DNA from: Capnocytophaga bilenii | GTDB taxonomy: Bacteria > Bacteroidota > Bacteroidia > Flavobacteriales > Flavobacteriaceae | NCBI RefSeq assembly: GCF_017565765.1 | Contig: NZ_JAGDYP010000005.1 | Location: 1-64,000, forward strand | Direction: 5' to 3' | DNA length: 64,000 nt | Shown: piece after piece, positions 19,577-42,187 of the stretch | How the letters are laid out: every line of letters begins with the position of its first letter | How positions within the stretch are numbered: position 1 is the first letter of the stretch | Position numbers and translations under genes: made by a program | Notes under the pieces: generated by a model | Database searches by the model: none | Seen by the model: only the letters and a program-made list of their open reading frames with translations | What the model was told of the DNA's origin: nothing

Positions 19577-21058
19577 ATGAGTTCTGAGACATCACTGCGT
19601 ACGTCACATTTTGTACTTACGCTAAACACATTAGCTTTTGCCATTTGCTTTGCCTGTTGGACACTTAATGGAGTGTTGGTTACCTATTTGGTAGATAATG
19701 GTATTTTTAATTGGAGTGTAGTAGAAACAGGTTGGCTATTGGGCTTACCTATTTTATCAGGATCTATATTCCGTCCTTTAATGGGAATGCTAACAGATAA
19801 ATACGGTGGAAAACCTGTATTTAGTACATTGCTTATTTTCTGTGCAATTCCTTTCTTTTTAATGTACTTCGTAAATTCCTATTGGATGTACTTTATTTTG
19901 AGTATTCTTTTTGGTATGGTGGGTACAGGTTTTGCAGTAGGGGTAGCTTTCACCTCAGTATGGTATCCTAAAAACTGGCAAGGGCGTGCATTGGGTATTT
20001 TTGGTATGGGTAATGCTGGTGCTGCACTTACTACTTTTTTGGCACCTACACTTTTAAAGTGGCTTACAGATAATAATGAGAATTTAGAAGGGTGGCGCTG
20101 GCTACCTATAATTTATGGTATTGTAATTTTGGTAATGGGCTTGGCTTTTTTACTTTTTACTAAGAATAAGAAGGCAGCACAAGCTCCTAAATCTGTACAT
20201 CAGATGCTTACACCACTTAAATCAACAAGGGTATGGCGATTTGGGTTGTACTATTTCTTGGTATTTGGTTTGTTTGTAGCTTTCTCACAATGGTTGTTAC
20301 CTTATTATATCAATGTATACAGTACTTCTTTGATATTAGGAGGTATGCTTGCTTCTGCATTTAGTTTGCCAAGTGGGGTGATTAGAGCTTTAGGAGGTTA
20401 CTTATCAGATAAATTTGGGGCACGTGCAGTAATGCATTGGGTACTGCTTTCATCTCTTGTTATTGGAGGCTTGTTGATGCTTCCCAAGATGGAGATTCTA
20501 ACTCCAGGTAAGGGGGTTGCTTCGCCTAAAAATACGACAGTAGAAAAAGTAGAAAACAATAGTATTACCTTACAAGGGGTGGATAAACCTTTTGTTTTAA
20601 AAGAAAAGCCCGAAATACGCGATGAGAATAATATATTTCCTAAATCATACTCTTGGCAAGAAGCTTTGGTGAAAGATAACCAAGCGGTGAAGAAAAAAGA
20701 GGTGATAGCGCAAGGGGTTACACTTATTAAATTTGAGGCTCATATATGGGTATATACTATTTTGGTAATCCTCATTGGTATTATGTGGGGAATAGGTAAA
20801 GCGGCTGTATACAAATATATACCAGAATACTTCCCTAATGAGGTAGGTATCGTAGGAGGTATGGTAGGCCTGATAGGGGGTCTTGGAGGATTCATAGGAC
20901 CTATTTTGTTTGGTTACTTGCTTGATTTCTCTGGCTTATGGACAAGCTCTTGGATATTTGTATTCCTTACTTCGGCAGCGTGCTTGTATTGGATGCACCG
21001 TACAATTAACAAACTAAATAAGAAAGCAGCCCCAGAGTTGCAAGATAAGATAGAATAA
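19577..21058 (+). CDS. narK: Nitrate/nitrite transporter, NarK family (first copy)
   Basis: MFS transporter of 493 residues, about twelve helices. The two substrate-binding Arg residues appear in SGSIFRPLMGM (helix 2) and SGVIRALGGYLSDKFG (helix 8). Glycine-rich nitrate signatures appear as GMGNAGAALTTFLAP and in GGMVGLIGGLGGFIGP. An extra soluble stretch of about 85 residues sits between helices 9 and 10 (about 305-390), a loop expected to face the periplasm. It likely exchanges nitrate for nitrite or imports nitrate with protons; two narK genes together suggest both modes. The second copy starts 32 bases on, so the pair is one operon. Confidence 0.88.
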   Translation: MSSETSLRTSHFVLTLNTLAFAICFACWTLNGVLVTYLVDNGIFNWSVVETGWLLGLPILSGSIFRPLMGMLTDKYGGKPVFSTLLIFCAIPFFLMYFVNSYWMYFILSILFGMVGTGFAVGVAFTSVWYPKNWQGRALGIFGMGNAGAALTTFLAPTLLKWLTDNNENLEGWRWLPIIYGIVILVMGLAFLLFTKNKKAAQAPKSVHQMLTPLKSTRVWRFGLYYFLVFGLFVAFSQWLLPYYINVYSTSLILGGMLASAFSLPSGVIRALGGYLSDKFGARAVMHWVLLSSLVIGGLLMLPKMEILTPGKGVASPKNTTVEKVENNSITLQGVDKPFVLKEKPEIRDENNIFPKSYSWQEALVKDNQAVKKKEVIAQGVTLIKFEAHIWVYTILVILIGIMWGIGKAAVYKYIPEYFPNEVGIVGGMVGLIGGLGGFIGPILFGYLLDFSGLWTSSWIFVFLTSAACLYWMHRTINKLNKKAAPELQDKIE

Positions 21059-21090
21059 TTAAAGACTAAATAATTAATAATTGATTACAA

Positions 21091-22416
21091 ATGAGTAAAT
21101 GGTTAGAAAAATGGGAGCCTGAAAACGAAGAGTTTTGGCATTCTACAGGTAAAAAAATAGCAAATAATACGCTTACGATTACGACAATAGCACTTACACT
21201 TTCATTTGCGTGCTGGTTTTTGTATAGTGCAGTGGTTATTAAATTGCCTCAAATAGGTTTTAATTTTAATGAAGACCAATTGTTTTGGTTGGCTGCTATG
21301 CCAGGTTTGGCAGGTGGGCTTTTGCGTATATTGAATACTTTTTTGATTCCTATTTTTGGGACACAAAAGGTAGTATCTATTAGTGCTCTATTGAAGATTA
21401 TTCCGTTGTTGATGCTTGGATTTGCGGTAATGGATCCTTCATCATCTTATGGATATTTTATGGTGATAGGTTTCTTGCTTGGTATTGGTGGTGGTGATTT
21501 CTCATCATATATGCCTTCTACATCATTGTTTTTCCCTAAACGTTTGTCGGGGACGGCTTTGGGTATTCAAGCAGGGGTAGGTAACTTTGGGGTGAGTTTG
21601 GTACAATTGCTTTCGCCTATTGTTATTAGTTTGAGTATTTTTTCTTTTATGGGCGGAGGCGAGATTGTAGCGCAAGCTGGTAAAACTATCTACTTAGAGA
21701 ATGTGGCTTTTATTTATGTATTACCACTTTTCTTGGTGGGTATTTGGGCGTGGTTTTCACTGAAGAGTATTCCTGTAAAAGCGTCTTTTAAAGAGCAATT
21801 GGATATTTTTAGTGATAAACACACTTGGTACTGCACGATTACTTATATTATGACTTTTGGTATTTTTGCGGGTCTTTCAGCTTCTTTTCCGTTGCTGATT
21901 AGAGGTTTGTACAGTAAGCTTGATAGTAGTATCGACCCATTGCATTACGCTTTCTTGGGGCCGATGATAAGTTCAGGAATGCGAGTGCTTTTTGGTAAAG
22001 TAGCTGATAAATTTGGAGGTGCTATTCTTACACATATTACAGGTATTGCAATGACAATACTATTTGCAGTACTTATATTAGGAGGTTATTTGACACCTAC
22101 TTCGGCGGATCAATTTCCAATGTTCCTTGCTATAATGTTGACTATATTCTTCTTTACAGGGGTTGGTAATGCAGCAACCTTTAAGCAATATCCTACGATT
22201 TTTGCGGCTTCGCCTCGTAAGTCGGCAGGAGTAATAGGTTGGACAGCTGCAGTGGCTGCTTTTGGGCCTTTTATATTTAGTGTTCTTATCAGTCAATCAA
22301 ACCAACTTACAGGTAATTCTAATGCATTCTTTTGGAGTGTATTTGCATTATGTATAGTTGCTACTTGGATAAATTGGTACTTCTATACACGCAAAGGATG
22401 TGAACGCCCAAGCTAG
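21091..22416 (+). CDS. narK: Nitrate/nitrite transporter, NarK family (second copy)
   Basis: A second, divergent NarK of 441 residues. The conserved Arg residues are in AGGLLRILNTF and SSGMRVLFGKVADKFG, and nitrate signatures in GVGNFGVSLVQLLSP and AGVIGWTAAVAAFGPF. An N-terminal soluble stretch of about 25 residues (KWLEKWEPENEEFWHSTG) precedes the first helix. In some denitrifiers two such halves are fused as NarK1-NarK2; here they are separate neighbours. One probably works as nitrate/proton symporter and the other as nitrate/nitrite antiporter, but sequence alone does not tell which. A hairpin follows 24 bases after the stop. Confidence 0.87.
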   Translation: MSKWLEKWEPENEEFWHSTGKKIANNTLTITTIALTLSFACWFLYSAVVIKLPQIGFNFNEDQLFWLAAMPGLAGGLLRILNTFLIPIFGTQKVVSISALLKIIPLLMLGFAVMDPSSSYGYFMVIGFLLGIGGGDFSSYMPSTSLFFPKRLSGTALGIQAGVGNFGVSLVQLLSPIVISLSIFSFMGGGEIVAQAGKTIYLENVAFIYVLPLFLVGIWAWFSLKSIPVKASFKEQLDIFSDKHTWYCTITYIMTFGIFAGLSASFPLLIRGLYSKLDSSIDPLHYAFLGPMISSGMRVLFGKVADKFGGAILTHITGIAMTILFAVLILGGYLTPTSADQFPMFLAIMLTIFFFTGVGNAATFKQYPTIFAASPRKSAGVIGWTAAVAAFGPFIFSVLISQSNQLTGNSNAFFWSVFALCIVATWINWYFYTRKGCERPS

Positions 22417-22440
22417 TAAAAAATTAGAAAGAAACTAATC

Positions 22441-22456
22441 AAGGCATAAAAGCCTT
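22441..22456 (+). terminator. Hairpin after the narK pair
   Basis: Perfect arms AAGGC and GCCTT around a six-base loop, followed by ATATTTC. Short, so probably a weak terminator. Confidence 0.45.
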
Positions 22457-22480
22457 ATATTTCAATAGGTTTAAGAAAAT

Positions 22481-22532
22481 AAGTGAATTACGAAACGTTC
22501 TAAATTACATTAAGAACTTTTGTAATTCACTT
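22481..22532 (+). promoter_or_regulatory. Long palindrome, probable operator of the nitrate reductase operon
   Basis: Arms at 22481-22501 and 22513-22532 form an inverted repeat: eleven outer bases (AAGTGAATTAC / GTAATTCACTT) pair perfectly, the middle has mismatches, and TTCT/AGAA closes it. The right arm covers the TTTG of the -33 element, so a dimeric regulator bound here would compete with or contact RNA polymerase. A terminator role for the upstream narK2 is possible but the arms lack a T run. Confidence 0.6.
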
Positions 22533-22548
22533 TTTAGTTGTAAATTTG
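22519..22548 (+). promoter_or_regulatory. Promoter of the nitrate reductase operon
   Basis: TTTG (22519-22522), 18 bases, TAAATTTG (22541-22548), 20 bases before the first start codon of the operon. The -33 box lies within the right arm of the palindrome. Confidence 0.75.
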
Positions 22549-22568
22549 CAGCGAGTAAAACAAATATT

Positions 22569-23624
22569 ATGTTCAGAATTTTCACCAGAATAAACAAGAA
22601 AGCATTTCGTAATGCAGTTATAGCCACTTTGGGGGTTATAGCTATTACTGTGATAGGTTCTGTAAATCTGCAGAACTATGATGCTGCACTGATGATTTAC
22701 TTTTTTGGTACCATCAGTATGACTTTTGGTATAGCCTATCGACACACGATGTGGCTACAACGCCCACCTACCAAAAAGTATTGGCAACGTACTTGGCAAT
22801 TGTTACGCAGCAAGGATTATTGGAACCAATTGAAGGACTACGGGCGATTAACATTTAAAAATCTTTTACTTCAGAAGTTTTTAATGCCACGTAGTAAGAT
22901 GCGTTGGCTAGGGCACTTTTTGCTCTCTGTAGGTTGCTTAATATCTTTTGGGGTAACCTTTGGGCTTACTTTTGGATGGATGCACTTTACTTTGGTTCCT
23001 GGTACTACGGATACTTATGAAACTCATATGATGGGATTCAATGTGATGGAATTTAAATTAGGTACTATTGTAGCATTATTTTTATTTCATATACTTGTAT
23101 GGACAGCTATAATGGTAATCATAGGTAGTGCAATAATGATGCACAGACGAATGATAGACGAGGGACAGTTGGCAACCCAATGGTTTGAACGCGACTGGAT
23201 TCCACTAATATTACTTATTGTAGTTTCGGTAACAGGATTGGGTATTTGGTTTGACTATTCATTTTTGGAAGGTAAAATGAGTCAGTTTATGGCTATTACG
23301 CACGCTATAGCAGTAGCGATGTTCCTTATGTGGATACCTTTTGGTAAATTCTTCCATATCTTTCAACGCCCTGCCCAAATAGGAGCAAATGTATATCGTA
23401 TACAAGGTGCTAAAGAAGGAATGCAAGTGTGCCCACACACAGAAGAGGAATATGCTACTAAAATGCAAATTAATGACCTTAAGGAGGTAACCAAAGAGCT
23501 TGGTTTTAAACTTGAAAATAGTGAAGGAATGAGCTATTTGGAGTACAGTCCTGAAGGGAAACGCTGTATGCTTGCTAAAGCACACTTAAAGGCAAGACAA
23601 GCGGATGGACGTTACTTTGGTTAA
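22569..23624 (+). CDS. Membrane cytochrome-b-like subunit of the nitrate reductase complex
   Basis: 351-residue integral membrane protein with two N-terminal helices (about 13-50) and further helices from about residue 115 to 270, then a soluble C-terminal part of about 80 residues. His residues lie within or at the ends of helices: MRWLGHFLLSVG, FLFHILVWTA, SAIMMHRRMI, AITHAIAVAMF and GKFFHIFQRP. This resembles the NarI/DsrM type of di-heme quinol-oxidising subunit. As first gene of the operon with the molybdoenzyme, ferredoxin and Rieske genes, its likely job is to oxidise menaquinol. The heme count and family placement are inference. It is not similar to any NarK. Confidence 0.65.
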   Translation: MFRIFTRINKKAFRNAVIATLGVIAITVIGSVNLQNYDAALMIYFFGTISMTFGIAYRHTMWLQRPPTKKYWQRTWQLLRSKDYWNQLKDYGRLTFKNLLLQKFLMPRSKMRWLGHFLLSVGCLISFGVTFGLTFGWMHFTLVPGTTDTYETHMMGFNVMEFKLGTIVALFLFHILVWTAIMVIIGSAIMMHRRMIDEGQLATQWFERDWIPLILLIVVSVTGLGIWFDYSFLEGKMSQFMAITHAIAVAMFLMWIPFGKFFHIFQRPAQIGANVYRIQGAKEGMQVCPHTEEEYATKMQINDLKEVTKELGFKLENSEGMSYLEYSPEGKRCMLAKAHLKARQADGRYFG

Positions 23625-23692
23625 TAAAAAAAATTTTACTTAAAGTAACTTAATAATATATTCAACAACTAAAAAAGATAACTCGTAATATT

Positions 23693-25957
23693 ATGGCAAC
23701 GTTACCCGTACCCGTAGATGAGATTATAGCAAAGTGGGGGCCGCATAAGCACTATATGACAAAAGAAACTGCTAAAGCGCGTGCTTCACAGACACCAGAT
23801 GAACTAGTGAAAACCCACTGCTGCTTTTGTGGTTTGCAGTGTGGTATCAAACTGAAAATAAAGAATAAGAAAGTAGTAGGTTTTGAACCTTGGCGTGAGT
23901 TTCCTTTCAATGAAGGTCGTTTGTGCCCTAAAGGAGTACAACGTTATATGCAAGATAACCACCCAGACCGCCTATTACAACCTATTAAACGTGTAGAAGG
24001 TGTAGGCTTTGTGCCTATAGAATGGGAAGAAGCCTACAGCACTGTAGTAAGCGAAATTAAACGCATACAAGAGACTTATGGTAGAAATGCCTTTGCAATG
24101 CTTTCGGGCGTATCACTTTCTACTGAAAAGAGTTACTTGGTAGGTAAATTTGCTCGCGTAGCACTAAAAACTGCTAACTTAGACTATAACGGTAGGTTAT
24201 GTATGGTGAGCGCTGGTGCTGGTAATAAGAAAGCATTTGGTATGGATAGGTCGTCTAACTCGTGGGCTGATTTGGCTCACGCTGAAGTGATTATCATTAC
24301 AGGAGCTAACGTATCGGAATGTTTTCCTGTGCTTACCTATAGAGTTTGGGAAGCACGTGATAATGGTGCAAAACTGATTGTAATTGACCCACGTGTAACC
24401 CCTATAGCACGTACTGCCGATATTCACTTGCCTATGCGCTCAGGAACTGATACGGCACTAATGAGTACTATGCTAAAGGTGCTTATTGATAATGATTGGC
24501 TTGATCACGACTTTATAAATAACTATACTTCGGGCTGGGAAGAAACTGCCAAAGAAGTGGAACACTGCACCCTTGAATGGGGTGAGAAAATCACAGGTGT
24601 ACCTAAAGAACTGATTTATAAAGCTGCCGAAATGTGGGGCAAGGCTAAAACATCGTTCTTGATGCACGCTCGTGGTATAGAACAACACCGCAAAGGAGTG
24701 ATGAACGTACTGAGCTGTATCAACTTGGTGTTGGCTACAGGACGTATAGGAAAACCTTACTGCGGTTATGGTACTATTACCGGACAAGGTAACGGACAAG
24801 GAGGACGTGAACACGGACATAAATGCGACCAGCTACCTGGTAACCGTGATATAGAAAACCCAGAACACCGTAAAATAGTAGCTGATTTTTGGGGTATTAC
24901 AGAAGAAGAGCTACCAAGAAAAGGACTAAGTGCCTATGAAATTATTGACGCTATCAATAAAGGGGAAATAAAAGGTTTGCTCTCTATCTGCTTTAATCCT
25001 ATAGTTTCATTGCCTAATAACAAATATGTAAAAAGTGCTTTAGAAAAATTGGAGTTTTATGCAGGTATAGATTTCTTCTTATCTGAAACGCTACGTCACG
25101 CAAATATTGTATTGGCAGGGTCGCTACAAGAAGAAGAAGAAGGTACAACAACAACTTCGGAAGGGCGAGTAGTGCGTATTTCGGGGGCTGTAAATCCTCC
25201 AGGGAAAGCAAAAAGCGATATAGAAATCCTTAAAGAATTGGCAAAACGTCTTGGGCAAGAGGATAAATTTACCTACTCTTGCAGTGAGGATATTTTTAAC
25301 GAAATTCGTCATATATCTAAGGGTTCATATGCTGATTATTACGGTATTACTTACGAAAAAGTAGAAAAGAATATGGGAGTATTTTGGCCTTGTCCAAGTT
25401 TGGATCACCCAGGAACCCCACGCCTATGGGAAGATAGGAAATTCAAAACGAATGACGGCAAAGCACACTTTAACCCAACCCCTTATATTCCACCAGTAGA
25501 AGAACCAGATGAAGATTATCCTATAGTGCTCACTACAGGACGTGTGGTAAGCCAATACTTGAGTGGTACACAAACAAGGCGTATTGGAAAGCTTATAGAT
25601 ATATATCCAGAACCTTTGATGGAAATACACCCAGAGTTGGCAGCCAAATACGGTATAAAAGAAGGTGATTTGGTGCGTGTTATTACTCGTCGCAATAATG
25701 CAGTATTTCCTGCTAATGTGGTAGAGACCATACGTAAAGACTCTATATTTATTCCTTATCACTGGGGTGGTGTAAATGCGGCAAACCAATTGACAGTAGG
25801 TTTGGATGGTCTTGACCCTATATCAAAAATGCCTGAATTTAAGGTATGTGCTTGTAAAATAGAAAAAACAGGCGAGAGAAAGGCAAAAGATTCGGCAGAG
25901 TACGCTTACAGAAGCCGTGATGTATTGTACAAAGATGGTGATACTGTAGTGGAATAA
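23693..25957 (+). CDS. Molybdopterin nitrate reductase, catalytic subunit (NasC/NarB/NapA-like)
   Basis: Catalytic subunit of 754 residues that should reduce nitrate to nitrite with a bis-MGD molybdenum centre. Cys43, Cys46, Cys50 and Cys78 bind a [4Fe-4S] cluster (HCCFCGLQC and RLCPKG). NGRLCMVSAGAG places Cys170 as the molybdenum ligand, as in NapA and assimilatory enzymes, unlike Asp-ligated NarG. GQGNGQGGREHGHK and TTGRVVSQYLSGTQTRR match cofactor-binding parts of the NasC/NarB group. There is no Tat signal, so it should work in the cytoplasm. The partner genes downstream (ferredoxin, Rieske, small membrane protein) and the absence of a nitrite ammonifier argue for respiratory rather than assimilatory use. 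Confidence 0.85.
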   Translation: MATLPVPVDEIIAKWGPHKHYMTKETAKARASQTPDELVKTHCCFCGLQCGIKLKIKNKKVVGFEPWREFPFNEGRLCPKGVQRYMQDNHPDRLLQPIKRVEGVGFVPIEWEEAYSTVVSEIKRIQETYGRNAFAMLSGVSLSTEKSYLVGKFARVALKTANLDYNGRLCMVSAGAGNKKAFGMDRSSNSWADLAHAEVIIITGANVSECFPVLTYRVWEARDNGAKLIVIDPRVTPIARTADIHLPMRSGTDTALMSTMLKVLIDNDWLDHDFINNYTSGWEETAKEVEHCTLEWGEKITGVPKELIYKAAEMWGKAKTSFLMHARGIEQHRKGVMNVLSCINLVLATGRIGKPYCGYGTITGQGNGQGGREHGHKCDQLPGNRDIENPEHRKIVADFWGITEEELPRKGLSAYEIIDAINKGEIKGLLSICFNPIVSLPNNKYVKSALEKLEFYAGIDFFLSETLRHANIVLAGSLQEEEEGTTTTSEGRVVRISGAVNPPGKAKSDIEILKELAKRLGQEDKFTYSCSEDIFNEIRHISKGSYADYYGITYEKVEKNMGVFWPCPSLDHPGTPRLWEDRKFKTNDGKAHFNPTPYIPPVEEPDEDYPIVLTTGRVVSQYLSGTQTRRIGKLIDIYPEPLMEIHPELAAKYGIKEGDLVRVITRRNNAVFPANVVETIRKDSIFIPYHWGGVNAANQLTVGLDGLDPISKMPEFKVCACKIEKTGERKAKDSAEYAYRSRDVLYKDGDTVVE

Positions 25958-26017
25958 CTAGTATTACTGATACTAACAACAAAATTACTAAGAGTAAAAT
26001 AAAAAGAGTAAAACAAA

Positions 26018-26593
26018 ATGGCAGAACAATTTGAGAAATTCAATGATATGGAGTTTTTCTTGGATATGCAGCGCTGTATAGGCTGTCACTCATGCGAGAT
26101 GGCGTGTGCAGAGTGTGAAACCAACGGAGAAACGACAATGATTCATATTCACTATATAGACAGACGGGAGACTGTACAAACTACTGTACAAGTGTGTATG
26201 CACTGTGATGATCCTATTTGTGCGAATGTGTGTCCTGCAGATGCTATAGTGAAAGACGAATATGGTATTGTACATTCAGCAGATGTATCTAAATGTATAG
26301 GTTGTGCAAACTGTGTGCTTAGCTGCCCATTTGGGGTGCCTAAAATACCAGACCAAAATGCACTATTGATGCAAAAATGTAATATGTGCTACGACCGTAC
26401 AAGCGTAGGGTTAAAGCCTATGTGTGCTACTGTTTGCCCAAGTGGAGCTTTGACTTTTGATACAAAAGAAAATGTGGCTAAAAAACGACCTAATAGTACA
26501 CCTATTAAGAAGTTTATATTTGGCGAAGAGGTAGTTACTACTAAAGTAAACCTGATGATGCCAAAAGGTAGCGAAGAGATAAAGGTATTTTAA
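26018..26593 (+). CDS. Four-cluster ferredoxin subunit (NrfC/DmsB-like)
   Basis: Electron-transfer subunit of 191 residues. Sixteen Cys in four groups can hold four [4Fe-4S] clusters: 20/23/26/30, 60/63/68/72, 93/96/99/103 and 121/124/136/140, the classical DmsB/NrfC/PhsB arrangement. It has no export signal and so should sit on the cytoplasmic side, wiring the membrane quinol oxidase to the molybdoenzyme encoded 60 bases upstream. The Rieske gene follows 31 bases downstream. The C-terminal 45 residues are basic and may touch the membrane subunit. Confidence 0.88.
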   Translation: MAEQFEKFNDMEFFLDMQRCIGCHSCEMACAECETNGETTMIHIHYIDRRETVQTTVQVCMHCDDPICANVCPADAIVKDEYGIVHSADVSKCIGCANCVLSCPFGVPKIPDQNALLMQKCNMCYDRTSVGLKPMCATVCPSGALTFDTKENVAKKRPNSTPIKKFIFGEEVVTTKVNLMMPKGSEEIKVF

Positions 26594-26624
26594 AAGCTAA
26601 AAACACTAAAAAGACTAACAACAA

Positions 26625-27155
26625 ATGGCAGACAGATATAAAGATATTCCTGATTGGAAAGCAGATTTTCCAATTAAAAGGACAGAGGCAGGTTATGTAG
26701 CAAGGCGTGATTTTTTGAAAGTGATTACACTTTTTTCGGGAATTATGGCTGTAGCTAACGTTTTTATACCGGTTTTTAATTTTTTTCATAAAAGAAAAAC
26801 AATTAAAGATTACTTTGTGTGCAATGTTTCGGACATAAAGATAGGTACGCAAAAAACGTTTTATGTGGATGGAGATCATCGTAATCCTTATATGCTCATA
26901 AGGATGGGTGAGAATGATTGGCGCGTATATGAGCAAAAATGTACGCACTTATCTTGTGCTGTGATTTACGATCACGAACATCAGATGATAGAGTGTCCTT
27001 GTCATCACGGTTTTTTTGATGCTAAGGATGGGAAGGTGTTACAAGGACCACCACCACGCCCATTACCACGATTGAATGTGATTGTGAAAGACGACAAAAT
27101 ATACGTGGAAGACTATACTTATGAAAAGCAAATTAATCATAAGGCACACTCATAA
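26625..27155 (+). CDS. Rieske [2Fe-2S] protein with Tat-type anchor
   Basis: 176-residue Rieske protein. RRDFLK (27-32) followed by a hydrophobic helix (about 33-54) is a twin-arginine signal-anchor, so the Rieske domain should be exported and remain membrane-tethered. Cluster ligands are C106-T-H108 with C111, and C124-x-x-H127 in CPCHHG. A Rieske subunit is not part of Nar, Nap or known Nas enzymes. Here it lies between the ferredoxin and small membrane protein genes of the nitrate reductase operon, so it probably takes part in quinol oxidation as in bc-type complexes. That role is inference from position. Confidence 0.85.
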   Translation: MADRYKDIPDWKADFPIKRTEAGYVARRDFLKVITLFSGIMAVANVFIPVFNFFHKRKTIKDYFVCNVSDIKIGTQKTFYVDGDHRNPYMLIRMGENDWRVYEQKCTHLSCAVIYDHEHQMIECPCHHGFFDAKDGKVLQGPPPRPLPRLNVIVKDDKIYVEDYTYEKQINHKAHS

Positions 27156-27171
27156 TTAAAAAAATGGAATT

Positions 27172-27471
27172 ATGGCAATAAGAAAAAAACCACTTCAGAA
27201 AGTAACCTCACGTATCAATGATATGTTGGGATTTATTATAGCGATCTATATAATGTTTACAGGTATGCAAATGTGGCTACTATTTGGTACTATCAATAAG
27301 GCATTGTACTTGTATAATACGGAAATTGATGTACAAAATTTTGCTACATGGTCGGCTATAGGTTCAGTAGTCATTTTTGGCTGCTTGTTATTCTTTCTTC
27401 GTTATATCCCGATGATTAAAACAGGTAAGATTTTGAAAGGAGACGAAAAAGAAGAAGAATATGAGTACTAA
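27172..27471 (+). CDS. Small two-helix membrane protein of the nitrate reductase operon
   Basis: 99-residue protein with two hydrophobic helices (about 17-44 and 58-80), a basic N-terminus (MAIRKKPLQKV) and an acidic tail (GDEKEEEYEY). The charge pattern suggests both ends are cytoplasmic. I do not recognise a family with confidence. Its position after the Rieske gene and its 11-base overlap with moaA suggest a small structural subunit or assembly factor of the membrane complex. No heme- or metal-binding motif is visible; there is no His or Cys in a typical ligand pattern. Confidence 0.7.
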   Translation: MAIRKKPLQKVTSRINDMLGFIIAIYIMFTGMQMWLLFGTINKALYLYNTEIDVQNFATWSAIGSVVIFGCLLFFLRYIPMIKTGKILKGDEKEEEYEY

Positions 27472-28453
27472 TTTAATCGATTCATTCGGACGAAAACATA
27501 CATATTTGCGGCTATCTATTACAGATAGCTGCAATTTTCGTTGTTTATATTGTATGCCAGATGAACCTTTTGGCAGTACCCCTAATGCCAAATTGATGAA
27601 TAGTGATGAAATCTTTGGCATCTCGAAGGTATTTGTAGATAATTACGGTATTGAGAAAATACGTATTACGGGGGGAGAACCTTTAGTAAGACACGATTTT
27701 GCTGAGATTATTAAGAAATTGGCTACACTTGATGTGTCGTTGGGCGTGACGAGCAATGGGGTATTGTTAGACAAATATTTCACGTTATTTAAAGATAATG
27801 GGGTTCAGAATTTGAATATCAGTATAGACTCATTGGATAATGAGCGTTTTAAACAAATTACTAAACGCGACTTGCTACCCAAAGTATGGGAAAATATACA
27901 ACGCAGTATAGATGAAGGATTTAAGGTGAAACTAAACGCTGTGATAATGCGAGGCGTGAATGATGATGAGCTATTGCAATTGGTAGGCTTATCGCACAGC
28001 TATCCTATTGAGATGCGTTTTATTGAATTTATGCCTTTTTACGGTAATGCGTGGGAACGTAACAAAGTAATTTCTATAAATGAGATGCTTTTGGAGATTC
28101 AGAAATCATATAGCTGCATAAAACTTAATGACGAAAAACACGATACCTCGCGAAAATATAAATTGAGCGAAGAGAGTAGGGGAATTTTTGGGTTTATATC
28201 TACAATGAGTAATGCTTTTTGCGGGGGGTGTAACCGTATACGACTCACTTCGGATGGGAAGATGAAAAATTGTCTTTTTGGAGCTGAAGAGTTTGACTTG
28301 TTATCTCTGTACCGAAAAGGAGAAGATTTGACAGCTCTTATAAAAGAAGGTATATGGCGAAAACATAAAGAAAAAGGAGGACAGTTCTCTGAAATGAATA
28401 CTGTTGATAATAATAAATTGGTAAATAGGAGTATGATAAAAATAGGAGGGTAA
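27461..28453 (+). CDS. moaA: GTP 3',8-cyclase MoaA
   Basis: Radical SAM enzyme that rearranges GTP as the first step of molybdenum cofactor synthesis. The 330-residue protein has the SAM cluster motif C24-x3-C28-x2-C31 (SCNFRCLYCMP), the GGEP motif (ITGGEPLVR) and the second cluster region CGGCNRIRLTSDGKMKNC. It also has the C-terminal Gly-Gly pair (IKIGG), which in MoaA enters the active site. It overlaps the upstream gene by 11 bases, so cofactor synthesis is coupled to the reductase operon. moaC, moeA, mogA and the other Moco genes are not in the window and must be elsewhere. Confidence 0.95.
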   Translation: MSTNLIDSFGRKHTYLRLSITDSCNFRCLYCMPDEPFGSTPNAKLMNSDEIFGISKVFVDNYGIEKIRITGGEPLVRHDFAEIIKKLATLDVSLGVTSNGVLLDKYFTLFKDNGVQNLNISIDSLDNERFKQITKRDLLPKVWENIQRSIDEGFKVKLNAVIMRGVNDDELLQLVGLSHSYPIEMRFIEFMPFYGNAWERNKVISINEMLLEIQKSYSCIKLNDEKHDTSRKYKLSEESRGIFGFISTMSNAFCGGCNRIRLTSDGKMKNCLFGAEEFDLLSLYRKGEDLTALIKEGIWRKHKEKGGQFSEMNTVDNNKLVNRSMIKIGG

Positions 28454-28481
28454 AAAAATTAAAACTTTTTTAAGAAAATGT

Positions 28482-28511
28482 TTTGTATGTTATTTTTTTT
28501 TAATAATTTTG
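28482..28511 (+). promoter_or_regulatory. Promoter of the porin-mod operon
   Basis: TTTG (28482-28485), 18 bases, TAATTTTG (28504-28511), about 105 bases before the porin-like gene, leaving a leader that contains a hairpin. Confidence 0.7.
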
Positions 28512-28539
28512 CACCCAATTTTAGAGAATTATTTAGAGG

Positions 28540-28571
28540 CACATAAGTAGCCTTTTTTTAGGCTTATCGTG
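28540..28571 (+). promoter_or_regulatory. Hairpin in the leader of the porin-mod operon
   Basis: CAC-ATAAG-CCT on the left pairs with AGG-CTTAT-GTG on the right, with small bulges and a T-rich loop, 45 bases before the porin-like start and downstream of the promoter. It could be an mRNA structure or a protein site. No known riboswitch class is recognised. Confidence 0.4.
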
Positions 28572-28615
28572 TAGTAATAATTATCATAACGAAATTTATT
28601 AATAATTCAATTTAT

Positions 28616-29773
28616 ATGAATAAACATTTTTTATTATTAGCTGGAGGAGTATTAGGGCTCTTCTCTACTGCTTCGGCGCAAGTTTCATTTACAAGTGGTG
28701 ATATAAAAGCAACTATAGGGATGCGTTTTATGGCTGATGCTGCTTATTACGTAGATGATGTTACACCACTAACTTCAGGTACAAAAATTACTGAAGCACG
28801 TGCTCGTTTTGGTTTTAAGACAGGCAACTGGGATGCGTATGCAGATTTTGATTTTGCAGCGCCTTCAGGAGCTAATCGCACACGTGACCTTTGGGTACGT
28901 TACACTCATAAAAATGAAGAGGGGGTGTACAAAGCTACTCGTTTTGGCTACCAATGGGAACCTTTTGGAATGACAACCAATACAGGACGTATGGCGTATC
29001 ACTTTATACAACGTCCTAATTTTCACAATACATTGGGTGGGGCACGTCTTTTAGGTGTTACTTACTACTATGTAAATCCTAAATTTTTCACTCACACAGG
29101 TATATTTAGTGAGCGTCCTTATAACGACCAAGCTTCAGGAGATTCTGGTGTTGTTTTATCAGGACGTTACCTTTTCAAAGCAATAGCTAATGAGACAAGC
29201 ACTTTCCAATTTGGTACTAGCCAACGATTTGCTTACATCAGAACTTATCCTACATTGACCATTAGCAGTCCGCTAGAAACTAACATAAATCCAAAAGCTG
29301 CAGCTTTGGGTGCAGAAATGACAATAGAAAACCCTAGAAGTAGTTATCGTTTTGGGGTAGAAAGTATGTTCCATAACGAAAACTTCTTTGTTCGTGGTGA
29401 ATATATGAAAACTTTTGTAAATAAAAAGACTTCGGGTACAGGTACTTATCAAGCAGGATACGTAGAAGCAGGATATGCCTTTAACGGAGCTACTTATAAG
29501 TATGATGCACAAAAAGCTGTACTAAAAGGGCTTAGCAAAGCAGGTAACTGGGAAGCAGTAGCACGAGCAAGCTGGGCAGACCTTTACAATGGTGAAAACA
29601 TAGCAGGTGTAAAAAAAGGAGTGCAAATGCGCAGCTATACTTTAGGAGCTAACTATGTAGTGAATAAACACGCTCAACTAATGCTTTCATATACACACAC
29701 TAATCTTACTAGTAAAGTTAAAAACGACAAAAACATAGGTATACTACAAGGGCGTGTAATGATTAACTTTTAA
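28616..29773 (+). CDS. Outer membrane porin-like protein (OprO/OprP type)
   Basis: 385-residue predicted beta-barrel. It has a cleavable signal peptide (MNKHFLLLAGGVLGLFSTASA) and then alternating aromatic strands from start to end, finishing RVMINF with the terminal Phe expected for outer-membrane insertion. The strand pattern with KITEARARFGFKTGNWDAY and YGYQWEPFG-like stretches resembles Bacteroidota phosphate-selective (OprO/OprP) porins. Lying directly before modA and after the nitrate reductase operon, it could admit nitrate, nitrite or molybdate, all small oxyanions. That is inference. It has its own promoter and is followed by modA after 26 bases. Confidence 0.75.
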   Translation: MNKHFLLLAGGVLGLFSTASAQVSFTSGDIKATIGMRFMADAAYYVDDVTPLTSGTKITEARARFGFKTGNWDAYADFDFAAPSGANRTRDLWVRYTHKNEEGVYKATRFGYQWEPFGMTTNTGRMAYHFIQRPNFHNTLGGARLLGVTYYYVNPKFFTHTGIFSERPYNDQASGDSGVVLSGRYLFKAIANETSTFQFGTSQRFAYIRTYPTLTISSPLETNINPKAAALGAEMTIENPRSSYRFGVESMFHNENFFVRGEYMKTFVNKKTSGTGTYQAGYVEAGYAFNGATYKYDAQKAVLKGLSKAGNWEAVARASWADLYNGENIAGVKKGVQMRSYTLGANYVVNKHAQLMLSYTHTNLTSKVKNDKNIGILQGRVMINF

Positions 29774-29799
29774 AAAAACTGAAAAATAACGATTATCAT

Positions 29800-30558
29800 A
29801 TGAGAAAAATATTTAAATTTGTGCTTGTTGTAGCTTTAATGCTTACAAGTGGTTTCAGCTTTGCAGCAGATAAAATAACAATTGCTGCTGCGGCTAACTT
29901 ACGTTATGTATTGGAAGAACTAAAACAACAATACCTTAAAGAAAATAAGGGTGCAGAAATAGAGATAGTATTTGGAGCTTCGGGAACGCTTACACAACAA
30001 ATTGTGAATGGAGCTAATTTTGACCTTTTCTTGGCTGCTAATACTAAATTTCCTGAAGAAGTGATTGCTAAAGGTTTTGGTGAAGGTAGCTCAGTAGTAT
30101 ACTGCTATGGCAAAGTAGCTTTGTGGAGTATGAGTATTGATGTGAAAAAAGGCATAAAAGCTACCCTATCTAACCCTAAAGTGAATCGTATAGCTGTTGC
30201 TAATCCTAAATTGGCACCTTATGGTAAAAATGCAGTAGAAACACTTCAAAGATTGGGCTTATATGAGACAGTAGAGCCTAAAATTGTATGGGGTGAGAAC
30301 ATCAACCAAACAGCACAGTTTGTATCGACAGGGAATGCACAAGTGGGATTTGTAGCACTTTCAACTATTTTGGCACCTGAAATGAAAGGTAAACAAGGTA
30401 AGTACTACGTTTTGAAAAATGAAGAATGCCAACCTATAGCTCAGGCAGGCGTGGTAATAAAAGGTAAGAATACGGCTGCCGCTGATAAGTTTTTTAAATA
30501 TATTACTAGTAGCAAGGCTACCGCTATTTGGAAAAAACACGGATATGAAGTAAAATAA
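29800..30558 (+). CDS. modA: Molybdate ABC transporter, binding protein ModA
   Basis: Periplasmic molybdate-binding protein of 252 residues: signal peptide (MRKIFKFVLVVALMLTSGFSFA), then ITIAAAANLRYVLEEL, the ModA N-terminus, with the ligand-binding FGASGTLTQQI and DLFLAANTKFPEEV following. It delivers molybdate to ModBC. Its stop codon overlaps the modB start by one base, giving a tight modABC operon that feeds the molybdoenzyme encoded just upstream. Tungstate binding cannot be excluded. Confidence 0.93.
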   Translation: MRKIFKFVLVVALMLTSGFSFAADKITIAAAANLRYVLEELKQQYLKENKGAEIEIVFGASGTLTQQIVNGANFDLFLAANTKFPEEVIAKGFGEGSSVVYCYGKVALWSMSIDVKKGIKATLSNPKVNRIAVANPKLAPYGKNAVETLQRLGLYETVEPKIVWGENINQTAQFVSTGNAQVGFVALSTILAPEMKGKQGKYYVLKNEECQPIAQAGVVIKGKNTAAADKFFKYITSSKATAIWKKHGYEVK

Positions 30559-31232
30559 TGGAAAGTTTCGTAAATACCTTATTACTTACAGGCAAGATGG
30601 CAGTAATTACAACTGCCGTCTTGTTTGTATTAAGTTTGCCAATAGCCTATTGGTTGGCTTACTCAAAATTTAAGCTAAAAGTAATTTTTGAAGCCTTATT
30701 GTGTATGCCAATGGTACTTCCTCCAACAGTAATGGGATACTACTTTTTGTTGCTTATCAGTCCGACACGCGGTTTTGGTGCATTTTTGAGTGAACATTTT
30801 GATATACAATTAGCTTTTACTTTTGAGGGAGTAGTATTGGTGAGTATTATAGCAAATTTGCCTTTTATGATTCAGCCGTTACAAAACGGTTTTATGGCGT
30901 TGCCCAAGAGTTTTAGAGAGGCGGCTTACACTTTGGGAAAGAGCCGATGGACGACCTTTTGGCGTGTGTTGTTGCCTAATATCAAACCATCTGTAATTAC
31001 AGGAATTGCACTTACTTTTGCCCATTGTATAGGTGAATTTGGCGTTGTACTGATGATAGGAGGAAGCATTCCTAACGAGACAAGAGTGGCATCAATTGAA
31101 CTATATGACCAAGTGCAGGCTTTGAATTACGATCTTGCTAACCAATATGCTTTTATACTTTTTGCTATTTCGTTTCTTATTCTGCTAATTATTTTCAGTG
31201 TAAATAAAAAAAATAAAATTCTTAATTCATAA
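30558..31232 (+). CDS. modB: Molybdate ABC transporter, permease ModB
   Basis: Inner-membrane permease of 224 residues with about five helices. The region EAAYTLGKSRWTTFWRV (about residues 118-134) is the EAA loop that docks ModC, and LPPTVMGYYFLLL and LTFAHCIGEFGVVLMIGG are typical of ModB. It forms the channel through which molybdate from ModA is moved at the cost of ATP. It starts one base inside the modA stop and is followed by modC after eight bases. Confidence 0.93.
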   Translation: MESFVNTLLLTGKMAVITTAVLFVLSLPIAYWLAYSKFKLKVIFEALLCMPMVLPPTVMGYYFLLLISPTRGFGAFLSEHFDIQLAFTFEGVVLVSIIANLPFMIQPLQNGFMALPKSFREAAYTLGKSRWTTFWRVLLPNIKPSVITGIALTFAHCIGEFGVVLMIGGSIPNETRVASIELYDQVQALNYDLANQYAFILFAISFLILLIIFSVNKKNKILNS

Positions 31233-31240
31233 AATCTTTT

Positions 31241-31879
31241 TTGATGATTATAAAACTATCACATACTATTTTTACATCGGAAGGTGAGCGCAAATTGGAA
31301 GTAAATGAAACAGTTGCTGATGGAGCCTTGGTGTGTTTGTATGGTCCTTCTGGCATTGGAAAAACTACTCTTTTTAGGGTAATAGCAGGACTTATCACTC
31401 CTGAACGAGCTTACATAAACGCAAATGATAAGGTTTTTATCGATACTCAACAGCGTATTAATTTGCCTCCACAACAGCGTAATGTGGCTTTTATGTTTCA
31501 GGATTATGCTTTGTTTCCTAATATGACGGTGTGGGGCAATATTGCTTTTGCTCAAAAGGAAAAAGATGATGCATACATACAACAATTGCTAAAAGCCTTT
31601 GATATGGAGCAACTTAAAAATAGAAAAGTAACTCAACTTTCTGGAGGACAGCAACAAAGGGTAGCTTTGGCACGTACTTTGGCACAAAAAGCTCCTATTA
31701 TATTGCTTGATGAGCCACTATCATCGGTAGATGCTACAATGAAAAATGTGATGAAAGAGGTAATTTTAAAACATCAGGAGGCAACGAAAGCTACAGTATT
31801 TATTATAAGTCATACCCCCGAAGATTTTAGAGAAGAAGCCACTCAAATCATCAATGTAACAGGAGCTTTATATACCTAA
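31241..31879 (+). CDS. modC: Molybdate ABC transporter, ATPase ModC (short form)
   Basis: ATPase of 212 residues with Walker A (GPSGIGKTTLFR), Q-loop (FQDYALFPNMTVWGN), signature LSGGQQQRVALAR and Walker B (IILLDEPLSS). It powers ModAB. The protein ends right after the H-loop region (IISHTPEDF), so the C-terminal MOP/TOBE domain that lets E. coli ModC bind regulatory molybdate is missing. Feedback inhibition by molybdate through that domain is therefore unlikely here. I see no frame disruption at the end, so the short form appears native. Confidence 0.92.
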   Translation: MMIIKLSHTIFTSEGERKLEVNETVADGALVCLYGPSGIGKTTLFRVIAGLITPERAYINANDKVFIDTQQRINLPPQQRNVAFMFQDYALFPNMTVWGNIAFAQKEKDDAYIQQLLKAFDMEQLKNRKVTQLSGGQQQRVALARTLAQKAPIILLDEPLSSVDATMKNVMKEVILKHQEATKATVFIISHTPEDFREEATQIINVTGALYT

Positions 31880-31887
31880 AAAAGAAT

Positions 31888-31908
31888 TAAGATAAAATTA
31901 TCATCTTA
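31888..31908 (+). terminator. Hairpin after modC
   Basis: Arms TAAGAT and ATCTTA around a nine-base loop, nine bases after the modC stop, followed by TTATT. It lies just upstream of the nirK promoter, so it may end the mod transcript or bind a regulator. Confidence 0.4.
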
Positions 31909-31911
31909 TTA

Positions 31912-31941
31912 TTGTGCTTATTATATTTTTTTGTACTTTTG
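31912..31941 (+). promoter_or_regulatory. Promoter of nirK
   Basis: TTG (31912-31914), 19 bases, TACTTTTG (31934-31941), 25 bases before the nirK start. Full consensus match. Confidence 0.75.
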
Positions 31942-31966
31942 TACCAACTAAAAACGACTACCTAAG

Positions 31967-33403
31967 ATGAAAAAGCACATTACAAAACTCTTTTCTTTTG
32001 CTTTATTTACTTCATTTATAGCTACTTCTTGTAGCAACAACAGTACTTCTATCCCTGCTACTGATATTGTAGTAGAAGGTGAAATGGAAGCAGAACTTAC
32101 TTCACCTCCTAAAGTTCCTGCACCTATAGGCAATCGTAAAGCAACGCGTCTTTACGTAACCTTAGATATTATTGAAAAAGAAGGCGAAATAGTAGACGGT
32201 ACTAAATATTTATTTTGGACATTTGGAGGGACAGTACCTGGTAGCTTTATACGAGCTCGTGTGGGTGATGAAGTAGTTTTTACGCTTAAAAATCATCCTG
32301 ATAATAAACTGCCACATAATATTGATTTGCACGCTGTTACAGGAACAGGGGGCGGTGCAGCAGTATCATTGGTAGCTCCTGGACAACAACGTACTTTTAC
32401 TTTCAAATGTCTTAATCCTGGATTATTTGTTTATCATTGCGCTCAGTCGCCTGTGCCATTGCATATTGCCAATGGTATGTACGGGCTTATACTAGTAGAA
32501 CCCGAAGGAGGGTTACCCCCTGTAGATAGGGAATATTACGTAATGCAAGGTGATTTCTATACTGTTGAAGGGCATGGTGCTGGAGGTACTCAGGCATTTA
32601 GCCAAGAAAAAGCTTTGGCAGAAACTCCAGATTATGTAGTTTTTAATGGTAAAGTAGGAGCACTTACTAATGAAAGAGCTTTGGTAGCCAACCCAGGTGA
32701 AACAGTGAGACTTTTTGTAGGGAATGGGGGTCCTAATTTGGTGTCATCATTCCACGTGATAGGTGAGATTTTTGACAGAGTGCGGGTAGAAGGCGGTTCG
32801 CTCATCAATGAAAATGTACAAACTACAATGATACCTGCGGGAGGAGCTGCTATTGTTGAATTTAAGGTGGAAGTGCCTGGTGTATATGTGCTTGTAGATC
32901 ATTCTATTTTTAGAGCTTTCAACAAAGGTGCTTTAGGATTATTAGTAGCACAAGGAATGGAAAACCCTACTATTTTTGGAGGAGAAGCACCTAAACCTTA
33001 TCAAGCTACTGATGTGAAAGTACAAAAGACAGAACCTAACACCCCACAAACTGCTAAAAATAAAACTTTAGCAGAACAATTAGAAGACGGACAGAAAGTA
33101 TATCGCCGAACTTGTGTAGCTTGTCATCAGGTACAAGGACAAGGACTTACGGGAGCTTATCCGCCTCTTGCCAAAGCCGATTACCTAAATGCCAATGTGA
33201 ATAGAGCTATAGAATTTGTAGTAAAAGGGCATTCTGGAGGGATTACCGTAAATGGACAAAGCTACAATGGTGTAATGCCACCACAACAACTTAATGATGA
33301 ACAAATAGCCGATGTACTTACCTATGTGTATAACAATTGGGACAACAATAAAACAATCGTAACGCAAGAACAAGTACGGAAGGTAAAGTCTCAGAAAAAA
33401 TAA
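31967..33403 (+). CDS. nirK: Copper nitrite reductase fused to cytochrome c (NirK-Cyt c), lipoprotein
   Basis: Reduces nitrite to nitric oxide outside the inner membrane. The 478-residue protein is lipid-anchored (Cys22 in FIATSC). The two cupredoxin domains keep every copper and catalytic residue: type 1 His117, Cys158, His166, Met171; type 2 His122, His157, His312; proton-relay Asp120 and His263. A C-terminal cytochrome c (CVACH, Cys383/Cys386/His387; Met437 in GVMPP) would feed electrons to the type 1 copper without a separate donor. It has its own promoter after modC. No nitric oxide reductase or nitrous oxide reductase gene is in the window. Confidence 0.95.
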   Translation: MKKHITKLFSFALFTSFIATSCSNNSTSIPATDIVVEGEMEAELTSPPKVPAPIGNRKATRLYVTLDIIEKEGEIVDGTKYLFWTFGGTVPGSFIRARVGDEVVFTLKNHPDNKLPHNIDLHAVTGTGGGAAVSLVAPGQQRTFTFKCLNPGLFVYHCAQSPVPLHIANGMYGLILVEPEGGLPPVDREYYVMQGDFYTVEGHGAGGTQAFSQEKALAETPDYVVFNGKVGALTNERALVANPGETVRLFVGNGGPNLVSSFHVIGEIFDRVRVEGGSLINENVQTTMIPAGGAAIVEFKVEVPGVYVLVDHSIFRAFNKGALGLLVAQGMENPTIFGGEAPKPYQATDVKVQKTEPNTPQTAKNKTLAEQLEDGQKVYRRTCVACHQVQGQGLTGAYPPLAKADYLNANVNRAIEFVVKGHSGGITVNGQSYNGVMPPQQLNDEQIADVLTYVYNNWDNNKTIVTQEQVRKVKSQKK

Positions 33404-35202: not shown

Positions 35203-36240
35203 ATGGCTAAAAATCCTAAGATAGAGTTTTTTATTATAAACATAAACTCTTACAAGAAAGAAAAACCTACATTTAGAGACTTATTTACTGAGCTATATAG
35301 TATTAAAAAAAGTAAGAATACGAGAGATAATATAGACAATAGTATCTTAATGAATACTTTCTTACAATATATTTTTGATAAAATCAGTGGTAAGTATAAG
35401 GTTGATAATGAAAAGAAGAAAGCTTTTTATATTGAGAAAGAAAAAAAGAAGAATTTAAATAAAAATATTAAGTTTCTATCTGAAAAACATATTATTCATG
35501 GACTAATTAAAGGAGGAGAATATGATACTGGAAAAGAAGAAGGAGATTTGAAAAATCCTGATAAGAAAAACAAACTTTCAAATACATCTGTACTTTTAGA
35601 TGATTTTTACTTTTTACTTTTTACTCCTTTAGATAAGAGTAAAGGTATTCTTATTTTACAAAATTATACGTCAGATCAAATTTCGGATGTTTTCTTACCT
35701 TTTATTCGGGACTTATTCAAAATTGATAACTTATCTTTGAAAGCTATTCTTAAATCTTTTATGCCGATTGAAATGCAAAAAGAAATCAAAAAGAATGGTA
35801 TAATTGAAAAGTTTACTTTTTCTAATGAATATTTAATAGATGATTTAGATAGAGATACACATTCCTCCGAAAACTTTATAATTGAGGTAAATATACTTTC
35901 TAAGAGTAAAAATATAAATCTTCTTTCTCTATCTTTTTGGAAGAAAAAAATTAAAGATTTTAAAATAATAAATTCTAAAGGAGAAGCACGATCTTTAGAT
36001 ACATTCAATAAACAATATGGTTATATAAGGAAAGGAGGAAGTACCTTATCTACTCCTACTCGATTTGTTTTAGATGATGATTCAATAAAAATAAAACCTA
36101 CTATATTTTTACAGAATTATATAAGATTAGAAGAAAACTATACTCCAATATGGAAAGATTTGGAAGATTTTGCATTAAAAACATTGGAAGAAATTGTAAT
36201 ACCTGAAGTATATCCTGAAGATTTTATAGATGAAGATTAG
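35203..36240 (+). CDS. Unknown protein, first gene of an AT-rich two-gene unit
   Basis: 345-residue soluble-looking protein, very rich in Lys, Asn, Ile and Asp. It has no signal peptide or membrane helix. Visible pieces are a basic coil-forming stretch (about 65-90), a hydrophobic strand LLDDFYFLLFTPLDKSKGIL near 135, and an acidic C-terminus (PEVYPEDFIDED). I recognise no domain. Its last 11 bases overlap the start of a membrane protein gene, so the two are translationally coupled. Composition unlike the neighbouring core genes, and a setting next to GyrI-like, Fic and McrBC genes, suggest a transferred, possibly defence-related unit. That is inference. Confidence 0.6.
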   Translation: MAKNPKIEFFIININSYKKEKPTFRDLFTELYSIKKSKNTRDNIDNSILMNTFLQYIFDKISGKYKVDNEKKKAFYIEKEKKKNLNKNIKFLSEKHIIHGLIKGGEYDTGKEEGDLKNPDKKNKLSNTSVLLDDFYFLLFTPLDKSKGILILQNYTSDQISDVFLPFIRDLFKIDNLSLKAILKSFMPIEMQKEIKKNGIIEKFTFSNEYLIDDLDRDTHSSENFIIEVNILSKSKNINLLSLSFWKKKIKDFKIINSKGEARSLDTFNKQYGYIRKGGSTLSTPTRFVLDDDSIKIKPTIFLQNYIRLEENYTPIWKDLEDFALKTLEEIVIPEVYPEDFIDED

Positions 36241-38589: not shown

Positions 38590-39183
38590 ATGAAAACTAC
38601 AGATTTAACGAACTGGAACAACTACAAAGAAACTAAAGAGGCAAAAAAAATTATAAAGATATTTGAAGAGGGGAGTATGAATAGTATTCTTGCAGCTTTT
38701 GTAAAAGAAGAAGCTGCAGCCCAATTTCCTGCCTATATACACATTATCACTAATGTATTTGAAAATTCACTAATTCCTTATGATGTGCCTATAAAAGATC
38801 TTTTTAACTATATACTTGATAGAGGACTGAAAGGGTATATAGTAGAGTGTAAGCTTGATTTTGATATTTTTTATCCTGAAAATTATGATTTTCTTATACC
38901 ACGTATGATTCCTCTTTCTATTGCACTTTATGGCTTGGATAGAGTAGAGGATAACGATTGCTACATTCCTTATCTTTTTTACCGCAATTTTAAAAAATTA
39001 AAGAAAATAGCAGAGACTTTTGGCGTAGAAATGCCTCCTTTACCCTCAAGAGAGGACGTAAAAGAACGGGTATTGTATTATTTGGAGTTTTGCCGTGTGT
39101 GGAATGACTTCCGTATTGAAAACGACCTTACTATGGCTGAAGTATGTGCTTTTATCTATGATTTTGCCCCTAAATATATTTAG
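38590..39183 (+). CDS. Unknown protein downstream of the Fic gene
   Basis: 197-residue soluble protein with no signal peptide. It is predominantly helical, with aromatic-rich segments such as VFENSLIPYDVPIKDLFNYIL (about 55-75, shortened here by eye) and an end that reads like a helical bundle (VLYYLEFCRVWNDF, LTMAEVCAFIYDF). I recognise no family. It starts 14 bases after the fic stop, so the two are probably co-transcribed and it could be a target, partner or inhibitor. It is convergent with mcrC, four bases away. Confidence 0.6.
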   Translation: MKTTDLTNWNNYKETKEAKKIIKIFEEGSMNSILAAFVKEEAAAQFPAYIHIITNVFENSLIPYDVPIKDLFNYILDRGLKGYIVECKLDFDIFYPENYDFLIPRMIPLSIALYGLDRVEDNDCYIPYLFYRNFKKLKKIAETFGVEMPPLPSREDVKERVLYYLEFCRVWNDFRIENDLTMAEVCAFIYDFAPKYI

Positions 39184-42156: not shown

Positions 42157-42187
42157 ATTTTGATAGACTATCATATTTTTAAAGCAA

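Follow-up and report, generated by a model that had tools for sequence, protein, structure and literature searches.

A conserved gene cluster of Capnocytophaga bilenii that probably encodes a respiratory nitrate reductase of unusual composition

The window analyzed here, 64,000 nucleotides from the 2.73-Mb genome of Capnocytophaga bilenii, carries a conserved gene cluster that probably encodes a genuine respiratory nitrate reductase of unusual composition. Its five genes (positions 22569–27471, forward strand) encode a six-helix NarI/QmoC-like cytochrome b with a conserved C-terminal tail (CYB, 22569–23624), a catalytic subunit of the molybdenum bis(pyranopterin guanine dinucleotide) type with a [4Fe-4S] domain (MO, 23693–25957), an electron-transfer subunit with four [4Fe-4S] clusters of the formate dehydrogenase (FDH)-beta/DmsB/NrfC type (FES, 26018–26593), a Rieske [2Fe-2S] protein (RSK, 26625–27155), and a two-helix membrane protein resembling DUF6755 (TM2, 27172–27471). 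With a probability of roughly 0.64, we read the products of the cluster as a respiratory enzyme, a menaquinol:nitrate oxidoreductase that is bound to the membrane and whose active site lies in the cytoplasm. A previous sequence-only reading of this DNA had also proposed a nitrate reductase that is attached to the membrane, faces the cytoplasm, and has a Rieske protein linked to it, and that core of the proposal is supported as probable.

Genes, motifs, gene order, co-inheritance, and genome context are observed; the proposed model adds to them the substrate, the assembly of one complex and its topology, the pairing of the hemes, the path of the electrons, the type of quinone, and the part played by the Rieske protein. 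NarK would import nitrate and release nitrite. Oxidation of menaquinol would take place close to where the NarI-like CYB meets the periplasm, and electrons would cross CYB from a distal heme (H174/H245) to a proximal heme (H116/H263), continuing through the four [4Fe-4S] clusters of FES and the [4Fe-4S] cluster of MO to a Cys-ligated molybdenum. RSK, anchored on the periplasmic side through twin-arginine translocation (Tat) and perhaps held there by TM2, would most likely take electrons one at a time from menaquinol where it meets CYB and pass them to the distal heme. The nitrite released would pass to periplasmic NirK.

Conservation of the gene set

The comparison covered 89 relatives' loci, namely the best 80 of at least 570 stretches found to encode a CYB relative when genome contigs were scanned with a CYB alignment, in which a single gene may match both search patterns, plus 9 further loci. 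Up to about 9 kb was covered on each side of every relative locus. Three locus pairs (L017/L064, L028/L029, and L044/L045) have identical CYB DNA, so the 89 loci hold 86 distinct sequences. With the window included, the open reading frame (ORF) clusters contain 89 members for MO, 87 for CYB, 85 for RSK, and 75 each for FES and TM2, the remainder having been removed by length, overlap, and similarity filters.

In 88 of the 89 loci, a single strand carries CYB, MO, FES, and RSK in this order, and the exception, L061, is a contig that ends inside MO. The gene linkage on which the sequence-only reading was built thus recurs beyond chance. Two loci, L041 and L049, have MO split into two tblastn pieces. 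By title the loci include ones from Bacteroidota, Ignavibacteria (L047 and L094), Verrucomicrobiota (L070, L073, L078, L079, and L083), and Vicinamibacteraceae (the cut contig); the closest named relatives of CYB among the matches listed are those of Capnocytophaga leadbetteri (92%) and Capnocytophaga sputigena (90%). A TM2-like protein is present in 86 of the 89 loci, recognized by clustering in 74 and in the others through tblastn matches and 11 identifications by eye; none of these three approaches established a homologue in L061, L078, or L083. Downstream of RSK in the verrucomicrobial loci L070, L073, and L079, TM2 measures 164–167 rather than about 85 amino acids, owing to a C-terminal extension. 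A Deinococcus plasmid, found through its MO (56.7% identical), has the same order of CYB (37% identity, E 2.7e-73, annotated as "MFS transporter"), MO, FES (55%), and RSK (32%), flanked by two NarK genes, and its small protein gave no match to TM2.

MO and CYB are inherited together. In a draw of 395 genomes from the phylum, 12 genomes (including that of the window) had a CYB match, 8 of them strong (E < 1e-100) and 4 weak (E 4e-6 to 3e-4), and a family draw gave 4 of 199, again counting the window's own. MO, because its family is broad, found some match at E ≤ 0.001 in 240 of the same 395 genomes. Identity reached at least 70% in 8, exactly the 8 with strong CYB matches, and the next full-length MO matches were at most 40% identical.

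A NarK or SLAC1 gene is present in 74 of the 89 loci and one or more genes for the molybdenum cofactor (Moco) in 55, with one or the other everywhere except in the cut L061. SLAC1 anion-channel family genes lie near 20 loci (L016, L017, L048, L049, L051, L054, L060, L062, L064–L066, L068, L072, L080, L081, L085–L088, and L101), where they perhaps stand in for NarK. At the end of the Ignavibacteriales locus L047 (18578–19030), a NarG-like stretch shares 52% identity with E. coli NarG across 151 amino acids; this contig possibly carries two nitrate reductases near each other.

The membrane and electron-transfer subunits

The sequence-only reading had described CYB as a bc-like cytochrome b, a label that has to be replaced. 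CYB has no Pfam match at E ≤ 0.1, on which ground a bc1-type cytochrome b was rejected, and the best PDB match of its profile is E. coli NarI (E 0.0066). A direct hhalign comparison with NarI gave a P value of 3.6e-4 at a weak probability of 36.8%, aligning H245 and H263 of CYB with H187 and H205 of NarI, which we take to be NarI heme ligands; the controls NrfD and NapH were not significant (0.21 and 0.31). Further matches among NCBIfam models (QmoC, TcuB, and TmcC) are weak and all below cut-off. CYB has six transmembrane (TM) segments, and its positively charged loops place both ends inside. His116, His245, and His263 are invariant in 87 of 87 ORFs, and His139 is found in 74. Based on this topology, H116/H263 would bind a heme on the cytoplasmic side and H174/H245 one on the periplasmic side.

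Hydropathy assigns no TM segment to MO or FES, one to RSK, and two to TM2. FES, earlier called a sixteen-Cys ferredoxin, has 17 invariant cysteines among the aligned relatives' ORFs. The TM2 copy of the window scores 14.6 bits, below the DUF6755 cut-off of 27, and its homologue in L072 scores above the Pfam cut-off.

RSK matches PF00355 at 51.4 bits. The Cys and His residues of both loops of its cluster motif (CxHxxC...CxCH) are present in all 85 ORFs, as is R27 of the Tat-type N terminus (RR-x-F-x-K); R28 is found in 73 and is Lys in the other 12. Its nearest relatives in the PDB are 8hn2, a subunit of b6f, and the two bc-type Rieske proteins 3fou and 1nyk, presumably from Thermus. Gly129 and Phe131, also present in 85 of 85, occupy what we take to be the positions of the potential-raising Ser and Tyr of bc1. 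An excerpt of PMC3758308 states that in bc1 Rieske proteins Tyr-to-Phe and Ser-to-Thr exchanges lower the potential and that a Phe-to-Tyr exchange is without effect in AioB. From these substitutions a lower potential can be inferred for RSK, and a low-potential Rieske protein suited to menaquinol is plausible.

The catalytic subunit

MO contains the domains PF00384, PF01568, and PF04879, and among NCBIfam models it scores highest with NasC, reaching 821 bits where the cut-off is 1100. All 89 ORFs, that of the window among them, have the pair Cys170-Met171 at the molybdenum site, in agreement with the earlier identification of Cys170 as the molybdenum ligand. Reference Nas and Nap sequences have Cys-Met here as well, whereas three of four FDH sequences have Cys/Sec-His and the fourth, FDH_Pantoea, has Cys-Gln. 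A tree of 32 rows groups the 23 from MO in a single clade (support 100/100), separate from the rows for Nas (3), Nap (2), and FDH (4).

Several known families can be set aside. NarG, with its Asp-ligated molybdenum, is ruled out by the invariant Cys170 and by a score of 55 bits against 1084 for TIGR01580. Nap was rejected as well: MO shows no export signal by eye and no TM segment by hydropathy, and in the 89 loci nothing matched NapB, NapC, or NapD of E. coli. An ordinary Nas does not fit a subunit that falls under the NasC cut-off and in a separate clade, in a genome with no match to PF01077 (NIR_SIR) and with no NirB or NirD match in the 89 loci. The earlier term "assimilatory-type" is therefore not supported, although NasC is the nearest named family.

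Four genomes (G127, G360, G391, and G502) have this MO plus a separate homologue, 37–40% identical, in a frame of 1180–1201 codons. A Hymenobacter NasC of similar size (1171 amino acids, 35.5% identical to MO) sits with nirD and cobA, which suggests that MO and the large homologue play different roles. Nitrate can be inferred as the probable substrate of MO because of the Cys-Met pair together with the NarK, SLAC1, and Moco genes of the neighborhoods.

Whole-genome profile searches, which may overlook divergent members, gave one match each for PF00384, PF00355, the COX1 family, and TatC. Thus, no further molybdenum enzyme of the PF00384 family (for example, NarG or NapA) and no second Rieske protein were detected, and with no sirohaem-dependent reductase for nitrite or sulfite matched either, the usual way of assimilating nitrate seems unlikely. 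We count the single PF00384 and PF00355 matches, the missing PF01077, and the presence of TatC in favor of a respiratory menaquinol:nitrate oxidoreductase.

Weighing the proposed function

Several observations weigh against this assignment. For MO, the FDH alpha model comes second at 619 bits, nearer to its cut-off of 666 than the NasC score is to its own; formate dehydrogenases take the first five places among its PDB matches, with the periplasmic nitrate reductase NapA sixth; and the tree places MO on the FDH side, a placement on which we do not lean because of midpoint rooting and long branches. The 89 loci contained nothing that matched NarJ or NapD of E. coli. For CYB, the match to NarI is weak, and a Foldseek search with its structure model (pLDDT 83.8) returned nothing at E ≤ 0.001, the first match being mycobacterial EtfD (E 0.039, TMq 0.42) and most of the others among the 50 listed being G protein–coupled receptors. 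His174, the proposed distal-heme ligand, is present in 81 of 87 ORFs and replaced in 6 (Lys in L042–L045, Gly in L024, and Asn in L074). Finally, part of a report on haloarchaeal nitrate reductase (PMC7754194) describes loss of the Rieske protein NarB early in purification while NarC stayed, NarB not being retained with NarGH.

Among the alternatives, the one that survives best makes RSK an entry port, with cytochrome c or an alternative complex III reducing RSK, which would feed nitrate reduction through CYB in place of direct menaquinol oxidation. Such an arrangement is possible but rather unlikely. As the sole PF00355 match, RSK leaves the genome with no separate bc1 Rieske protein detected, and the cytochrome c fused to nirK leads one to expect c-type carriers; a Streptomyces study (PMC7931247) reports a Nar that relies on a bcc-aa3 supercomplex. 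Yet no cytochrome c family was found among the 19 neighbor-cluster representatives scanned besides TM2 (45 clusters are listed), the ligand-loop changes of RSK suggest a low potential, and CYB resembles the quinol-oxidizing NarI.

RSK could instead be an electron outlet. The diheme CYB and the periplasmic RSK would then share one menaquinol site and split the electrons, one going to nitrate in the cytoplasm and the other leaving by way of RSK for acceptors in the periplasm, such as NirK. This Q-cycle-like bifurcation, achieved with no cytochrome b of the bc1 kind, would define a widespread class of respiratory nitrate reductase. We consider this improbable. A periplasmic Rieske protein does occur together with a b-type cytochrome, and nirK lies downstream in the window, with a 54–76% identical nirK in 6 of the 89 relatives' loci; the other 83 loci, however, lack such a nirK in the stretch covered (3 have a weak, 23–33% match), and CYB does not belong to the bc1 type.

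It is similarly doubtful that MO acts on another substrate, either a different oxyanion or formate. The FDH alpha score, the PDB matches, and the side of the tree on which MO falls would fit this possibility, but membership in the FDH family was rejected on the Cys-Met pair (89 of 89, rather than Cys/Sec-His) and on a score below the FDH cut-off, and the NarK or SLAC1 genes and the downstream nirK of the window speak for nitrate. Least probable, and by our estimate very unlikely, is an assimilatory NasC-type nitrate reductase that happens to be membrane-attached: NasC is the best NCBIfam model and a SUMT-type methylase gene lies near 13 of the 89 loci, but the missing NIR_SIR, NirB, and NirD matches, the four genomes with MO and a separate large homologue, and the Hymenobacter NasC found with nirD and cobA all argue otherwise.

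Comparison with known systems

Like NarGHI, the predicted enzyme would have a cytoplasm-facing molybdenum subunit, a subunit with four [4Fe-4S] clusters, an adjacent NarK, and a cytochrome that is weakly NarI-like with the last-helix His pair aligned. Unlike NarGHI, it has a Cys-Met molybdenum site in a Nas/Nap/FDH-type subunit, a six-helix CYB with a C-terminal tail, and Rieske and TM2 genes, and its loci lack a match to E. coli NarJ. It shares with NasC/NasA the Cys-Met pair, the best NCBIfam model, and the lack of an export signal by eye, but differs in its separate MO clade, its dedicated membrane, iron–sulfur, and Rieske genes, and the absence of a nirBD match.

The sequence-only reading had held that no known nitrate reductase has a Rieske subunit, but precedents exist, Rieske genes having been described next to nitrate reductase genes before. 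Haloarchaeal nar operons (narB, narC, and narGH), as partial texts of PMC2483277 and PMC7754194 describe, encode the Rieske protein NarB beside the cytochrome b NarC and thus place both kinds of gene beside a respiratory nitrate reductase, although its catalytic side faces outside (PMC7754194, in part). NarC, unlike CYB, is homologous to bc1 cytochrome b rather than to NarI (PMC8301774). A passage in PMC3475470 describes Paracoccus NasG as Rieske-type and Bacillus bataviensis nasC as linked to a gene for a Rieske-type protein, and an extract of a paper on Nap (PMC12769810) lists a Rieske protein among the operon partners used to retain NapA sequences. The nitrate reductase locus of Caldithrix abyssi also contains Rieske/cytochrome b genes (PMC5317091, in part). 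Its Nap differs in having a periplasmic NapA, a multihaem NapM, and a bc-type cytochrome b. Arsenite oxidase AioAB is an oxidase of another catalytic family and is not known to have a membrane cytochrome b. AioAB does combine a molybdenum enzyme with a small Rieske subunit that has Phe at the bc1 Tyr position, according to a section of PMC3758308.

The earlier claim of a distinct architecture picked out the correct genes and the correct kind of architecture, but it gave the cytochrome the wrong name and made too much of the Rieske partner as something new. The combination of a NarI-like CYB, a NasC-like MO, FES, RSK, and a DUF6755-like TM2 was not found described in the open literature searched; for the five-gene unit the search went by titles and the starts of abstracts, subscription papers lying outside its scope. 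A search of the same literature for DUF6755 found no paper.

The surrounding locus

All genes named in the sequence-only reading are present, close together on the forward strand, in the order narK, narK, CYB, MO, FES, RSK, TM2, moaA, porin, modABC, and nirK. The gaps measure 68 nucleotides between CYB and MO, 60 between MO and FES, 31 between FES and RSK, and 16 between RSK and TM2, and TM2 overlaps moaA by 11. Upstream lie two NarK-type transporters of the major facilitator superfamily (19577–21058 and 21091–22416), which score 171 and 258 bits with TIGR00886, below its cut-off of 311.7. Downstream, moaA (27461–28453; TIGR02666, 335 bits, above cut-off), for Moco synthesis, is followed by modABC (29800–31879), a molybdate ATP-binding cassette transporter of which modA and modB score above their cut-offs and modC (148 bits) below its cut-off of 285. 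A copper nitrite reductase gene, nirK (31967–33403; TIGR02376, 332 bits, above cut-off), with a fused C-terminal cytochrome c (PF00034), completes the set. The narK, modABC, and nirK genes were thus correctly placed in the earlier account, which left unmentioned an outer-membrane porin gene of the Porin_O_P family (28616–29773) between moaA and modA.

Elsewhere in the window, a McrBC-type restriction pair occupies 39187–42174 on the reverse strand; McrC matches PF10117, and the McrB-like protein matches PRK11331 below cut-off. A Fic/DOC family protein with a winged-helix domain (37517–38575, forward strand) adjoins two ORFs without a Pfam match (35203–36240 and 38590–39183). The only Rfam match of the window at the gathering threshold is an L19-Flavobacteria ribosomal leader (RF03130; 54734–54761, forward strand).

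Distribution and significance

The gene set is found in C. leadbetteri and C. sputigena, and MO is present in 4 of 20 Capnocytophaga species genomes, including that of the window. One of these MO copies (G599:C11:127748–130006) contains an internal TGA and so may belong to a decaying locus. Published statements about the genus disagree. An excerpt of a 2026 pangenome paper (PMC13228040) has all Capnocytophaga species without nitrate reductase genes, whereas a passage of a 2026 review (PMC13413776) names three Capnocytophaga species as active nitrate reducers, and a table within PMC7538880 includes Capnocytophaga ochracea and Capnocytophaga gingivalis among nitrite-producing oral isolates. A locus carried by some species genomes and not by others may explain part of this conflict. 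Part of a study of Flavobacterium columnare (PMC5395568) reports that nitrate improved its anaerobic growth.

With at least 570 stretches encoding a CYB relative, the enzyme proposed here could be a nitrate reductase that is common in Bacteroidota and certain other bacteria but that surveys built on narG and napA would miss. Oral nitrate reduction bears on human nitric oxide supply.

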